Origin: Balneolaceae bacterium
GTDB taxonomy: Bacteria > Bacteroidota > Rhodothermia > Balneolales > Balneolaceae
Reading direction: 5' to 3'
NCBI GenBank assembly: GCA_034521445.1
Contig: JAXHMM010000003.1
Span: forward strand, 372,001 to 436,000
DNA length: 64,000 nt
A program made the translations under genes and the position numbers. The notes below the pieces were generated by a model. That model had not been told where the DNA came from. It did not search any database and worked only from the letters and a program-made list of their open reading frames with translations. Shown piece by piece: positions 10,527-15,810 of the stretch (positions are counted from its first letter, which is position 1; every line of letters starts with the position of its first letter).

Positions 10527-11297
10527 TCAGAGGACGTTCTCCTCCTCGTCCAGCAGTACGGCCACCTTGCGGGCCAGCTCGTCGGGCTCGCCCTCAAACT
10601 TCTGTCCGGGTTCGCGTCCCGGCTTCTCGCGGTAGCCGGTTACCCGGGTGCGCGGGGTGAGATCCTCCTCGTCCAGTCCAAGGGAAGAAAGCTCGACCGA
10701 TTCCACCGGCTTGCGCTTGGACTGCATGATGCCCTTGAGGCTGGGGATGCGCGGCTCGTTCATGTCGTTGGAGCAGGTCACCAGGCAGGGGGCGGGGAGG
10801 GCGATGATCTCCTGTCCACTGTCGCCCTGGCGGGTGACCACCAGCTTGCCGTCCTCGCTGGCCAGTCCCACTGCGTTGGTGGCGTAGGGAAGGTCCAGCT
10901 TCTGGGCCAGCATGCCGCCCGTCAGTCCTGCGTCTGTGTCCTGGGACTGCTTGCCGCAGGCGATGACGTCGTACTGCTTGTCGGAGAAGTAAGCTGCCAG
11001 GATGTTGGCGTAGGTGGCCGAATCAAAGTCTTCCTCCCCCGTAGTCTCAATGTGAACGGCCTTGTCGGCGCCCATGGCCAGCGCCTTGCGAATGGTTTCG
11101 GAAGCCTTGGCGGGTCCCACGAGCACCACCTCCACTTCGCCGCCGTGCTCTTCGGTGAGCACGAGGGCTTCCTCCACGGCGGAGGCGTCGTAGGCGTTCA
11201 GGATCATGCGGTCGGTGTCCTGGATCAGCTCGCCCTCCTTGATCTGCAGGGGGGCGTCCACGTCGGGCACCATTTTAATGCATACGTAGTACTTCAT
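10527..11297 (-). CDS. etfB: electron transfer flavoprotein beta subunit
   Basis: A 256-aa protein opening MKYYVCIKMVPDVDAPLQI, with LNAYDASAVEEALVL, the KQSQDTDAGLTGGMLAQKL stretch typical of the AMP-binding beta subunit, and LPYATNAVGL. It contains the ETF beta signature near residues 160-185 and pairs with EtfA. First gene of the electron-transfer operon, so the promoter should lie in 11298-11380. Confidence 0.96.
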   Translation of the reverse strand: MKYYVCIKMVPDVDAPLQIKEGELIQDTDRMILNAYDASAVEEALVLTEEHGGEVEVVLVGPAKASETIRKALAMGADKAVHIETTGEEDFDSATYANILAAYFSDKQYDVIACGKQSQDTDAGLTGGMLAQKLDLPYATNAVGLASEDGKLVVTRQGDSGQEIIALPAPCLVTCSNDMNEPRIPSLKGIMQSKRKPVESVELSSLGLDEEDLTPRTRVTGYREKPGREPGQKFEGEPDELARKVAVLLDEEENVL

Positions 11298-11380: not shown

Positions 11381-11429
11381 GGAGGGGCCGATCAGCTATG
11401 CCTCAGGCGGTAAATGCTCCCGTCGAACG
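11381..11429. repeat. 49-bp direct repeat, copy 1 (duplicate of the 3' end of the PQQ-dehydrogenase gene)
   Basis: This segment matches 11968-12016 with only three mismatches. The second copy includes the stop codon and last dozen codons of the sugar dehydrogenase (the sequence encoding FDGSIYRLRH on the minus strand). Copy 1 is therefore a detached fragment of that gene's 3' end. The two copies flank the hig toxin-antitoxin remnant as direct repeats 587 bp apart. Confidence 0.9.
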
Positions 11430-11543
11430 CTCAGGACTTGCGTAAGGATTTCGTCACTCTGGAGACCTATGTATTACATGCGTTATAATAGTTAAGGAAA
11501 AATGAAGTTGCATGATTACCGTTAAAGTATTAAACTTATTGAA

Positions 11544-11640
11544 ATGATCAGAACATTCGGTGACAAAACAACCGAAGACCTGATTTAAATGGATAGACTC
11601 GGACGCCTTCGAGGTATCACTCGTAGATTATCATAAATAA
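11544..11640 (+). pseudogene. higB: higB toxin remnant (internally deleted)
   Basis: Two fragments of a HigB/RelE-type toxin abut. From ATG 11544 the frame reads MIRTFGDKTTEDLI then stop (11586-11588), the typical HigB N-terminus. Two bases later, in another frame, 11590-11640 reads WIDSDAFEVSLVDYHK and stop, the typical HigB C-terminus. The middle 60 or so residues that hold the RNase core are missing, and the junction is out of frame. The remnant ends 13 bp before the higA start, the normal higBA order. The toxin must be inactive. Confidence 0.82.
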
Positions 11641-11653
11641 TGACTTTCCCGCT

Positions 11654-11944
11654 ATGTTACCCAAGAATAGGACAAGCACACATCCCGGTGTCGTTTTATT
11701 TGAAGAATTCCTAAATCCATTGGATATAACACAGCAAAAATTGTCAGATCACCTGGGCATCCCTATACAACGGATTAATGAAATAGTGAACGGTAAGCGC
11801 GGAATTTCCCCGGAAACTGCATGGCTTCTGGCCGGAGCATTCCAAACAACGCCCGAGTTCTGGATGAATCTCCAGGCCAATTACGACCTCACAAAACATC
11901 GTCCGGACAGGGAGATCCAACCATTGGAAAGTCTCGATAACTGA
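11654..11944 (+). CDS. higA: HigA family antitoxin (XRE-type HTH), orphan
   Basis: A 96-aa protein of the HigA/VapI family: RTSTHPGVVLFEEFLNPLDI, a helix-turn-helix around TQQKLSDHLGIPIQRINEIV, NGKRGISPETAWLLAGAF and TTPEFWMNLQANYDL. It appears intact, with normal length and termini. HigA binds and neutralises HigB and represses the operon. Its cognate toxin just upstream is reduced to its two ends, so this is an orphan antitoxin that may still bind DNA or act on a HigB elsewhere. Codon use is AT-rich compared with the flanking genes. Confidence 0.9.
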   Translation: MLPKNRTSTHPGVVLFEEFLNPLDITQQKLSDHLGIPIQRINEIVNGKRGISPETAWLLAGAFQTTPEFWMNLQANYDLTKHRPDREIQPLESLDN

Positions 11945-11967: not shown

Positions 11968-12016
11968 GGAGGGGCCGATCACCTATGCCTCAGGCGGTAA
12001 ATGCTGCCGTCGAAGG
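11968..12016. repeat. 49-bp direct repeat, copy 2
   Basis: Partner of 11381-11429 (three mismatches). This copy is continuous with the intact sugar dehydrogenase gene and is therefore the ancestral one. Confidence 0.9.
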
Positions 12017-13196
12017 CGCAGATGTAGAGCTCGTTGTCGGCGTCCACGCCGAAGGAGGATATGTTGAGGTCGGAATCGATGAGCAGGTGGTTCTCGGGGT
12101 TATCGGAATCAGACAGGTCCAGCGCCCAGATGCGCCCCGAAATAAAATCGGCGTAGATGTAGTATCCCTCCAGGGCCGGTAGATCCTCCCCGCGATAGAC
12201 GTAGCCGCCGGTCACCGAGCCGTTGCCGCCGTTGTGGGCGTACTCCCAGATCGGCGGGGTCAGTCCCGCCTGATCGCAGTTTTGCGAGCCGTAGCAGTGG
12301 TTCCCCTCCATGATGTTCCAGCCGTAGTTCCCGCCGCTTTCGATGAGGTCGATCTCCTCGTAGCGGGACTGTCCCACATCTCCAGCGATGAGGCGCCCCG
12401 TCTCGGCATCAAAGGAAAAGCGCCAGGGATTGCGCAGCCCCCAGGCGTAGATTTCCTCCCGGTAGCCCTGCTCGTTGCCCACGAAGGGATTGCGGGAGGC
12501 GATGGCGTAGTTTCGTCCCTCTTCTGCGCCGTCGACGTCGATGCGCAGGATGCTGCCCAGAAGGGTGGTGCGGTCCTGGCCGTTGCCGCGCGGATCGCCC
12601 CCGGAGCCCCCGTCGCCCAGGGCGATGTAGAGCAAGCCGTCGGGTCCGAAGGTCAGCTGCCCCCCGTTGTGATTACTGAAGGGCTGGGCGTAGGAGAGGA
12701 TTTCCAATTCGCTGGAGGGATTCGCGACGTCCGGGTCGGATGAAACCGTGAACCGGCTGTTGACGCTCCGGGCGGGAGAGGCGGCCGTGTAGTTGACGTA
12801 GAAGTATCCGTTGGAGGTGTAGTCGGGGTGGAAGGCCAGGCCCAGCAGTCCCTCCTCGCCTCCGGAATCGTCCACCTTCCCGCGGAGATCCAGGAACAGC
12901 CGGCTGGAGGAGGTTCCCGGATCGTTTTCAAAGACCCGGATGGTGCCCCTCTGCTCCACCACGAACAGCCTGCCGGAGCCGTCCCCGGCGTCGGTCAGCA
13001 AGACGGGCCGGTTGAAGGAGAGCCCGGGGAAAGCGTTCTCCAGTACGTAGGCATCCGGGTCGAATTCCCCGGGCGGCGGATTGCCGTTGCCGTTGTCGTC
13101 CATGGAGACGCTGTCGCTGCAAGCGGAAAGCAGGAGCAGAAGGCAGGAGAGTAAGGGCAGAGTGAGGCCGCGGAGGTGGTGGACTTGCTCCTTCAT
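11979..13196 (-). CDS. PQQ-dependent sugar dehydrogenase-like lipoprotein (soluble glucose/sorbosone dehydrogenase family)
   Basis: About 405 aa from the ATG at 13194-13196 (an ATG five codons upstream is also possible). The N-terminus is a lipoprotein signal: LPLLSCLLLLLSAC with cysteine after a good lipobox, so the protein is probably membrane-anchored in the periplasm. The body is a six-bladed beta-propeller of the GSDH family: NRPVLLTDAGDGSGRLFVVE, EEGLLGLAFHPDY, FSNHNGGQLTFGPDGLLYIA, LGDGGSGGDPRGNGQD, WGLRNPWRFSFD. Family members oxidise sugars with PQQ. PQQ synthesis genes are not in this window, and some family members lack the cofactor. The 3' end is duplicated at 11381-11429. Confidence 0.87.
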   Translation of the reverse strand: MKEQVHHLRGLTLPLLSCLLLLLSACSDSVSMDDNGNGNPPPGEFDPDAYVLENAFPGLSFNRPVLLTDAGDGSGRLFVVEQRGTIRVFENDPGTSSSRLFLDLRGKVDDSGGEEGLLGLAFHPDYTSNGYFYVNYTAASPARSVNSRFTVSSDPDVANPSSELEILSYAQPFSNHNGGQLTFGPDGLLYIALGDGGSGGDPRGNGQDRTTLLGSILRIDVDGAEEGRNYAIASRNPFVGNEQGYREEIYAWGLRNPWRFSFDAETGRLIAGDVGQSRYEEIDLIESGGNYGWNIMEGNHCYGSQNCDQAGLTPPIWEYAHNGGNGSVTGGYVYRGEDLPALEGYYIYADFISGRIWALDLSDSDNPENHLLIDSDLNISSFGVDADNELYICAFDGSIYRLRHR

Positions 13197-13348
13197 TATT
13201 CGGCCGGACATTTGGGTTACTTGACGGACCTTTCCGTGATCAATGGCTTATTCTTATAACCGGATCCGGTCTGCCAGCATTCGCCCCGCCCGATAGTTCC
13301 ACCGGGTGTTGTTCCTATCTGAGCGCTGGAGACGTGACAGGCATGCCG

Positions 13349-15511
13349 TCACTGGTCGACCGTCACCTGGTCAATCTGGTTGCCGCTGTCGTCTATGACG
13401 CGCATGCGAATCTGGGAACCCTCCACCTCCACCAGGATGAAATGGTGCACCTGGGCGGTTTTGGCGAAATAGGAATAGGGCTCGCTGGGCTCAATGGCCA
13501 CCCCCCAGGCGCCGTCTCCCATATAGGTAATGCCGTCCGAGCTCTGAACGCCTCCCTTAAGGGGCACCGTGCGCTTGTAGTTGTGATTGTGGTTCTCGAA
13601 GGCTACCCGTACCCCGTACTGCTCGAAAAGCGGCACCCAGTGCTGGCGCACCAGCTGATTGGTGATTTCGTCCTGGCGACGGGAGGGATAGGCGCCTACG
13701 TGGTAGAGGGGAAAGAGGTGCCGCCCGTCCTGACGGCTGGCCAGCGCATTCTCCAGCCATGCAGCCTGCTGGCCGTCCGGCGGATTGGTGTGGTTGGAAT
13801 CGAGGAAGATCAGGCTCATATAGTCGCCGAAGTCGAGTACCCCGTAGCCCGGCTGCCCGGGAAAGGCCATAAGGGAGTAGAAGAAGGGCGCAAGGTCAGC
13901 ACGGACTGCGTTGGTCTGCTCATACCCTGGATGTCGCCCCACAAAAGCACCTTTGACTTCGTGGTTGCCAATAGCGGCCAGGTGGGGTATGACGCGGTTC
14001 CCGGCGGTAATCATGTTCTCGCTCCACACCTCCAGGTAGTCGTACCATCGGCCAGCATAGAATGGATTGCCGTTGGCATAGGCCAGGTCGCCGCCCAGCA
14101 TGACGAAGTCGAGATTGTACTGTGCTGCAACCTGGGCTGTCTGACTCATCCATTGGGTGGTGTGCATGACATCCCCTGCGGCCGCAAAACGTATGGTGCG
14201 GCTTTGCTGGGAGGGGAGGGTTCGAAAGGTGTAGACATCACGGCCGGTAAAGCGGAATTCATAGGTGGTGTTGGGAAGTAATCCCGTGATCTCATGTCTC
14301 CGAATGACCCGTTCCGAACCTGGGAAATCGCTTACCTTGCCCTGCACCGTATTCCACTGACTGTCGCCCTTCCGCCTGTACTGCATCCATTGTTCGGCGA
14401 CGTCGTCCGTGTGCCAGTCGATGGTCATGGTGGTGGTGGGGTCACGTTGCCAGGATAACAGAAAGGAATAGGGATCGGAGGGGTTGTCGGTGGTAAAACT
14501 GAAATCGCTGCCATAAGCCGTAGCAACCTCGTTGGTGGCGTAGGCTCTAACGTAATAGGTGGATGCGGGATCCAGGTAGCTCATGGAAACCACGAAGGAT
14601 CCTGTACCTAAACCACTCTGGGAACAGTTATCCGCGAGGGTGGGTCCCGGACTCTTGCTCCAGCATACCCCGCGTTCGGTTACCTCCGCTCCTCCGTCAC
14701 TGACCACGTCGCCCCCGCTTTTCGCAATAAAAGACTGGATGTTGGAAACAAAGGAAGTTTTAACCGTCGGAGGTTTCTCGATGAAGGAAAAGACGGCCGT
14801 AACTGAAAGAGAGTCATCGATGACCAGCGAATCGGGATTGGCGTTGCCCTCCAGGTCGCCTTCCCAGCGGTTGAATTGCCATCCCTTTTCGGGAACTGCC
14901 GTAAGGGTGACGCTGTCAAAATGCTTGTAAATTAACTGGTCGGGCGATCGTTGTATAGTGCCCATTCCTTCAATGGTGGTCGAGAAGGGATACTCCTGCA
15001 ATTCGAAGACGGCAGTGACCGATTGATTATTCACCACTGTCAGGGAAACAGGATTGGTATCACCTTGAAGATCGCCTTCCCAGTGGTCGAAACGCCATCC
15101 TTCATTCGGTGTAGCTGTAAGCTGCACGCGTGTGCCATGTTCGTATGTAGAGTCTCCAGCCACCACCTGCTCATCCACGGTTCCTTCCCCCTGCGTTGCG
15201 ACCTTCAGGGAATAGGTTTTCAGGGCAAAGACTGCGCCTACCTCCATATTGCTGGAGATCTCCACCGCCTGCGGATTGCGAGTTCCCTCCAGATCGCCTT
15301 CCCAGTGATCGAATATGTAATCACCGGAAGGCCTTGCGTGAAACACCAGTTCAATGCCTTCGTCGTATCCGCCGGGCATCGGCTCTACGATGCCGCCCTC
15401 AGCCGGAGTGACGGAGGTATCCAGCGTGTAGACTTCCACCTTGGTACAGGTCAGGAGTCCTGTCAGGAACAATAATAGAAGGGTAATGAAAAGTAAGCGC
15501 TGTGCGTGCAT
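13349..15511 (-). CDS. B-repeat lipoprotein with purple-acid-phosphatase-like metallophosphoesterase domain
   Basis: A 720-aa exported protein. Signal LLFITLLLLFLTGLLTC, with cysteine at the lipobox position. Three InlB-type B-repeats follow (about residues 30-95, 96-170, 171-245), each with the recurring FDHWEGDLEG / ATPNEGWRF / AVF pattern. Next come a fibronectin-like domain (GVCWSKSPGPTLADN, YVRAYATNEVATAYG; about 250-345) and a purple acid phosphatase N-terminal-like domain (to about 440). The C-terminal metallophosphoesterase shows AAAGDVM, MLGGDLAYANGN, AIGNHEVKG, and histidines in FPLYHVGAYP and FENHNHNYKR that would complete the dimetal site. Probably a surface phosphoesterase for phosphate scavenging. 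It shares B-repeats with the protein at 47512-49326. Confidence 0.85.
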   Translation of the reverse strand: MHAQRLLFITLLLLFLTGLLTCTKVEVYTLDTSVTPAEGGIVEPMPGGYDEGIELVFHARPSGDYIFDHWEGDLEGTRNPQAVEISSNMEVGAVFALKTYSLKVATQGEGTVDEQVVAGDSTYEHGTRVQLTATPNEGWRFDHWEGDLQGDTNPVSLTVVNNQSVTAVFELQEYPFSTTIEGMGTIQRSPDQLIYKHFDSVTLTAVPEKGWQFNRWEGDLEGNANPDSLVIDDSLSVTAVFSFIEKPPTVKTSFVSNIQSFIAKSGGDVVSDGGAEVTERGVCWSKSPGPTLADNCSQSGLGTGSFVVSMSYLDPASTYYVRAYATNEVATAYGSDFSFTTDNPSDPYSFLLSWQRDPTTTMTIDWHTDDVAEQWMQYRRKGDSQWNTVQGKVSDFPGSERVIRRHEITGLLPNTTYEFRFTGRDVYTFRTLPSQQSRTIRFAAAGDVMHTTQWMSQTAQVAAQYNLDFVMLGGDLAYANGNPFYAGRWYDYLEVWSENMITAGNRVIPHLAAIGNHEVKGAFVGRHPGYEQTNAVRADLAPFFYSLMAFPGQPGYGVLDFGDYMSLIFLDSNHTNPPDGQQAAWLENALASRQDGRHLFPLYHVGAYPSRRQDEITNQLVRQHWVPLFEQYGVRVAFENHNHNYKRTVPLKGGVQSSDGITYMGDGAWGVAIEPSEPYSYFAKTAQVHHFILVEVEGSQIRMRVIDDSGNQIDQVTVDQ

Positions 15512-15810
15512 GTGGCACCAGACTTGATTGAATGGAGTCGTCAGACTGCCATCAGAAGATGATTTCTCTCCCTCATAGTACGAGTGTCCAAAATGGATGG
15601 CGTACCCGGCAAGTCATCTTCATATACTCTCGCCTTCAAACGGCGGCGTATTTTACAGTGCAAAAATTCAAACTAATTTTAGAAAAATACGCGTAAAAGA
15701 AAAGAAAAGTATTGAAATTCTAATGAGCGACATAGTACAAGCCAATCCTGGCCCGGAAGAGTGCTGCCGGGTCTTAATACCTGTTGGAGGCGTTTGTAAA
15801 CCTGATTTGT
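15512..15810. other. 299-bp intergenic region, no gene seen
   Basis: AT-rich stretch (15650-15730) between a minus-strand gene end (15811) and the start of the next minus-strand gene (15511). It presumably holds the promoter of the metallophosphatase gene. Short open frames lack any recognisable motif. Confidence 0.4.

Follow-up and report, generated by a model that had tools for sequence, protein, structure and literature searches.

The HigBA type II toxin-antitoxin (TA) modules combine a HigB toxin (PF05015) with a HigA antitoxin (TIGR02607), and antitoxins standing without a toxin have also been described. Orphan antitoxins amount to 2253 occurrences in the Klebsiella pneumoniae complex (PMC7192599), and no orphan antitoxin is commoner than HigA-1 in the marine MAGs of the MEER set (PMC12654330). 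Degraded pairs, anti-addiction and regulatory re-use have all been proposed for such antitoxins (PMC7192599; PMC7354431). The locus studied here lies in a 64,000-nt stretch of a Balneolaceae contig (the window). It resembles HigBA modules in its toxin-antitoxin order, in the gap of 13 nt between the stop of the toxin relic and higA, in the family of its antitoxin, in the two remaining ends of HigB and in an upstream element common to the family, and differs from them in that HigB is destroyed and no addiction pair is left. Like the reported orphan antitoxins (PMC7192599, PMC12654330), it has a full-length antitoxin without a usable toxin, and those reports include degraded TA loci among the proposed sources; unlike them, it still shows the two ends of the toxin and the ancestral element upstream in readable form. 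The locus is a fresh example of the already known one-sided decay of TA modules.

Table 1. Features of the higBA relic locus and its flanks (window coordinates).
Feature	Position	Strand	Description
Flanking host ORF, putative electron-transfer flavoprotein (ETF) beta-subunit gene	10527..11297	-	ORF
Left copy of 54-bp direct repeat	11381..11434		Stray duplicate of the adjacent GSDH gene's 3' end
Promoter/operator-like element	11507..11532	+	GTTGCATGATTACCGTTAAAGTATTA; relatives GTTGCATGGATACCGTTAATCCATTA; PWM score 28.1 bits
higB relic, N-terminal piece	11544..11588	+	14 codons, then frameshift stop; peptide MIRTFGDKTTEDLI*; original start kept
higB relic, C-terminal piece	11584..11640	+	18 codons and stop; peptide FKWIDSDAFEVSLVDYHK*; other frame, without start codon
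higA, HigA-family antitoxin	11654..11944	+	One open frame, 96 aa, intact
Right copy of 54-bp direct repeat	11968..12021		GSDH 3' end and 11 bp past the stop
GSDH, glucose/sorbosone dehydrogenase family (PF07995), flanking host gene	11979..13211	-	ORF, Pfam

Read directly, the leftovers of higB are two plus-strand pieces in different frames, 5' of an intact higA and overlapping each other (Table 1). An HMM made from 30 intact HigB homologues matches both pieces collinearly on this strand, directly upstream of higA, at model positions 1-13 (E 0.8) and 80-96 (E 3e-3). A separate, genome-wide search with a HigB of the family matched nothing but the relic (E 0.0027). Intact HigBs of the family are PF05015 proteins of 92-97 aa that start with MIKSFGDKATSDLF, to be compared with MIRTFGDKTTEDLI at the N-terminus of the relic, and residues 1-14 and 80-97 are still present here, split over two frames. 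No intact PF05015 toxin lies beside higA, so that the locus does not qualify as a functional higBA type II TA system; it has instead an intact antitoxin, a relic in the place of the toxin and a partner found nowhere else in the genome, as an orphan antitoxin derived from a degraded TA locus should. The first-pass annotation had described a gutted toxin with both ends left, which the sequence and the HMM matches bear out. Its estimate of 12-14 codons for the N-terminus agrees with the 14 that we read, and its 16 codons for the C-terminus become 18.

Relative to intact HigBs, 197 nt are missing in 20 of 21 comparisons, and the one remaining comparison gives 185 nt with a relative that has an indel of its own. 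The missing part corresponds to model positions of about 14-79, the toxin core. The length is not a multiple of three, confirming the earlier statement that the deletion takes the RNase core and shifts the frame. With codons of about 14-79 lost and the reading frame altered by this deletion of about 197 nt, the locus can no longer yield a toxin. Ambiguity of the surrounding sequence (GATTTAAATGG) prevents the breakpoint from being assigned to an exact base; up to about four matching bases are possible around it, which would be consistent with a deletion by short homology.

Comparison with intact relatives had been proposed as a way of dating the deletion. The amino-acid identity of the relic to intact HigBs averages 61%, the same as for higA (60%). 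Its divergence at codon positions 1, 2 and 3 is 0.31, 0.21 and 0.52, compared with 0.25, 0.16 and 0.53 at these codons in diverged pairs of intact HigBs and 0.30, 0.21 and 0.50 for L031. A relic long free of selection would be expected to diverge equally at the three positions, so that the unequal, coding-like pattern favours a recent deletion. Set against the divergence from the relatives, all of which belong to other genera, the deletion therefore appears recent, although 30 codons with saturated synonymous sites make this a weak test. Since a recent deletion is favoured, the intact higA needs no special explanation, and its survival is no proof of a new role at this locus.

The antitoxin itself is full length, as first annotated. 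Its product scores 95.3 bits against TIGR02607, the curated HigA model (cut-off 47.7), carries a PF01381 HTH_3 domain and has HigA entries among its Protein Data Bank matches. It is free of nonsense and frameshift changes and keeps 39 of the 43 columns that are invariant in the other homologues, a state that is also compatible with selection for a current role. A scan of GTDB with this HigA, from which its own genome was possibly left out, returned 80 loci in many phyla with a best identity of 69%.

We searched the genome (3.2 Mb in 18 contigs, 97.8% complete) for a second toxin, a check suggested with the original annotation. PF05015 had no match across the genome, and neither PF05015 nor the family HigB at E values up to 10 recovered a further resident HigB, only the relic being matched. 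The loss of addiction at the locus is thus well supported, with the toxin core gone and no HigB found in a 97.8%-complete genome, whereas the idea that HigA guards against other resident HigB copies is not sustained. A second HigA-family protein is encoded on contig 5 (L163:8426-8728) and scores 109 bits against TIGR02607, with no HigB beside it; two ORFs 200 bp downstream of it are presumably an AbiE-like pair. Contig 6 carries a chromosomal integron (L162, G000 C6:700000-717500; integrase at 14792-15754) with a cassette-like series of small TA-like pairs that includes four ParE-family toxins above the cut-off, and further pairs in this array resemble the PIN and Doc families. The orphan HigA as partner of a resident ParE was considered and ruled out: all four strong ParE toxins lie beside small antitoxin-like ORFs of their own.

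Upstream of the relic, the window retains an element that 19 intact relatives share as a stretch of 26-27 bp located 35-36 nt before higB; in the window it lies 37 nt ahead of the relic start. The relatives' form, GTTGCATGGATACCGTTAATCCATTA, holds an inverted repeat, most commonly ATGGAT-accgtta-ATCCAT, and the window copy, GTTGCATGATTACCGTTAAAGTATTA, has changes in the arms of this repeat. The runner-up site in the window, on either strand, scores only -6.4 with the same PWM. Autorepression by HigA through this element is plausible from its sequence. No second copy was found in the genome within 3 mismatches, and a HigA regulon gained no support, as the genome offers no operator-like site besides HigA's own; nothing in the sequence appears to point to other targets. 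The element is also absent from the five other orphan HigA loci found among relatives, where the best scores range from -5.7 to -20.6.

The flanks of the locus suggest how it came to lie where it does. It is bordered by a GSDH gene on one side and, on the other, by an ORF whose product we take from its sequence to be an electron-transfer flavoprotein beta-subunit. The two 54-bp repeat copies are 93% identical without gaps (E 9e-19), and the genome contains their sequence nowhere else, which suggests an insertion with target duplication. The direct repeats are host derived; an empty site in a close relative was not seen among the loci read, and an ETF-type gene next to a GSDH homologue was found in none of them (a GSDH homologue is present in 28 genomes). 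For restriction-modification genes of Helicobacter pylori, insertion with long target duplication has been described (Nobusato et al. 2000, as cited in PMC1643837). Compared with that case, the window locus is alike in that a small selfish-type pair lies between repeats of a host gene end, and differs in being a TA rather than a restriction-modification pair and in having a repeat of only 54 bp; we propose that it may be an insertion of this kind. One relative may offer a parallel to this flanking repeat: at L012 (G015 C2), an intact higBA is enclosed by perfect repeats of 59 bp of host sequence, and farther upstream there is a third copy.

Some relatives carry their higBA in integron contexts, the distance to the integrase being about 270 bp in G076 and about 10 kb in G053, and attC-like sequences are visible by eye around several other relatives' pairs. 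The window locus is homologous to such integron-borne cassettes and has the same leader, and a GTTAT lies 25 nt before this leader where the presumed cassette boundary of the relatives is at 24 nt, which is weak evidence of a shared boundary. It differs in lying on contig 3, apart from the integron of its genome on contig 6, and in having no attC-like site by eye after higA; the locus accordingly lacks the place in an array and, judged by eye, the adjacent attC that an integron gene cassette would have.

With its relic, intact higA, retained upstream element and flanking repeat, and with no HigB elsewhere in the genome, the locus is probably a decaying type II higBA module. A higBA pair of the kind that this bacterial family has in integron contexts would have arrived between the ETF-type gene and the GSDH gene, and its insertion would have duplicated 54 bp of the 3' end of GSDH at the opposite border. 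The toxin would have been destroyed afterwards by the loss of about 197 nt, perhaps between short matching stretches within higB. With higA and the upstream element surviving, HigA is probably still made and would repress its own short transcript, presumably having nothing to neutralise and no present role. Decay passes through an antitoxin-only state because the loss of a toxin is tolerated while the loss of the antitoxin beside a live toxin is harmful.

Comparison with 97 relatives, none of them from the genus of the window, places this state in context. Whereas higA adjoins all 36 intact higB genes, intact higB is found at only 22 of 28 close full-length higA genes, so that six of the 28 close HigA homologues, the window locus included, lack an intact HigB. 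Only part of the higB 3' end is left at L017, L024 and L027, and no higB relic was seen at L018 and L026. On the HigA tree the six orphans require 6 changes (bootstrap range 5-6, with weak branch support), and the six losses of HigB are apparently separate events. The higB fragments without higA are all partial, some of them at contig ends. Among the 80 loci from other phyla, which have not been individually curated, there are more cases in which an open higA has a broken higB, or none, upstream of it; this set was gathered by HigA and is blind to toxin-only loci. In these family numbers antitoxin-only loci are common and toxin-only loci were not seen among the 97 relatives, and the window locus offers a clear snapshot of one-sided addiction-module decay in which the upstream element and the two ends of the toxin remain legible. 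At one orphan locus (L027, G084 C326), the C-terminal part of HigB lies just 3' of a ParE-like ORF with higA intact, as though recombination had fused two TA modules.

Could HigA instead have been retained for a use that needs no toxin, either neutralising HigB from an incoming cassette or plasmid (anti-addiction) or regulating transcription? Its intact frame and retained upstream element would agree with such a use. The host possesses an integron of its own, and relatives across genera carry HigBs 90-99% identical to one query; these are possible targets of an anti-addiction HigA, and protection of the window's host against incoming HigB cassettes is possible. If a toxinless HigA were protective, such hosts would no longer be held by higBA borne on cassettes. 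A toxinless HigA is also kept beside urocanase in G060 and G066 with a dN/dS of about 0.09. Several observations tell against this use in the window and leave it unlikely: the deletion looks recent; the genome has neither a second operator-like site nor a resident HigB; the five orphans without the upstream element share no architecture that would indicate one new role; and the window HigA (L001) has the longest terminal branch in the HigA tree (0.70; median 0.03), though this tree is without same-genus sequences. The first-pass interpretation had also offered HigA as a new regulator, which finds no footing at this locus, where the sole operator-like site is its own and the deletion appears too young to allow a measurement of selection on the orphan. 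Of that interpretation as a whole, the loss of addiction stands, and the guard against resident HigB and the new regulator gain no support here.

An assembly artefact, in which the true higB is intact and about 197 nt were dropped during assembly, is very improbable. The locus is known from a single assembly, as this would require, but the junction has no long repeat liable to collapse, it lies well within a 656-kb contig, and the same kind of state recurs in six of the 28 homologues, in independent genomes. The likelihood is slighter still that the relic peptide or the DYH-containing tail is active, or that the relic acts as a leader setting HigA translation. The 14-codon ORF retains the original start, and the tail ahead of higA is also kept by L017, L024 and L027; against this, the tail has no in-frame start codon, model positions of about 14-79 are gone, and retention of the tail is explicable by its position beside higA alone.

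Among relatives, a toxinless HigA may have acquired a role. L018 and L026 are the same locus in two sister species of one genus (G060 and G066), with common neighbours on either side. The two proteins are 77% identical, and their dN/dS of about 0.09, calculated with synonymous sites near saturation, indicates purifying selection; they evolve faster than the adjoining urocanase (95% identical). In the stretches examined, one of them truncated, the other genomes of this genus have urocanase but no HigA. From this sequence record a toxinless HigA can be maintained and probably has a role in this one lineage, a conclusion that does not extend to the window copy. The general idea of another role in the earlier interpretation gains support from G060 and G066, and their HigA may be a local regulator. 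That HigA in this group regularly becomes a stand-alone immunity to incoming higBA integron cassettes, or a regulator of its neighbours, seems doubtful. In both species HigA and urocanase are divergently oriented and separated by about 260 bp (L198/L199). The orphan L024 compared with intact L013 and L014 gives a dN/dS of 0.04-0.06, and its divergence may be mostly older than its deletion.
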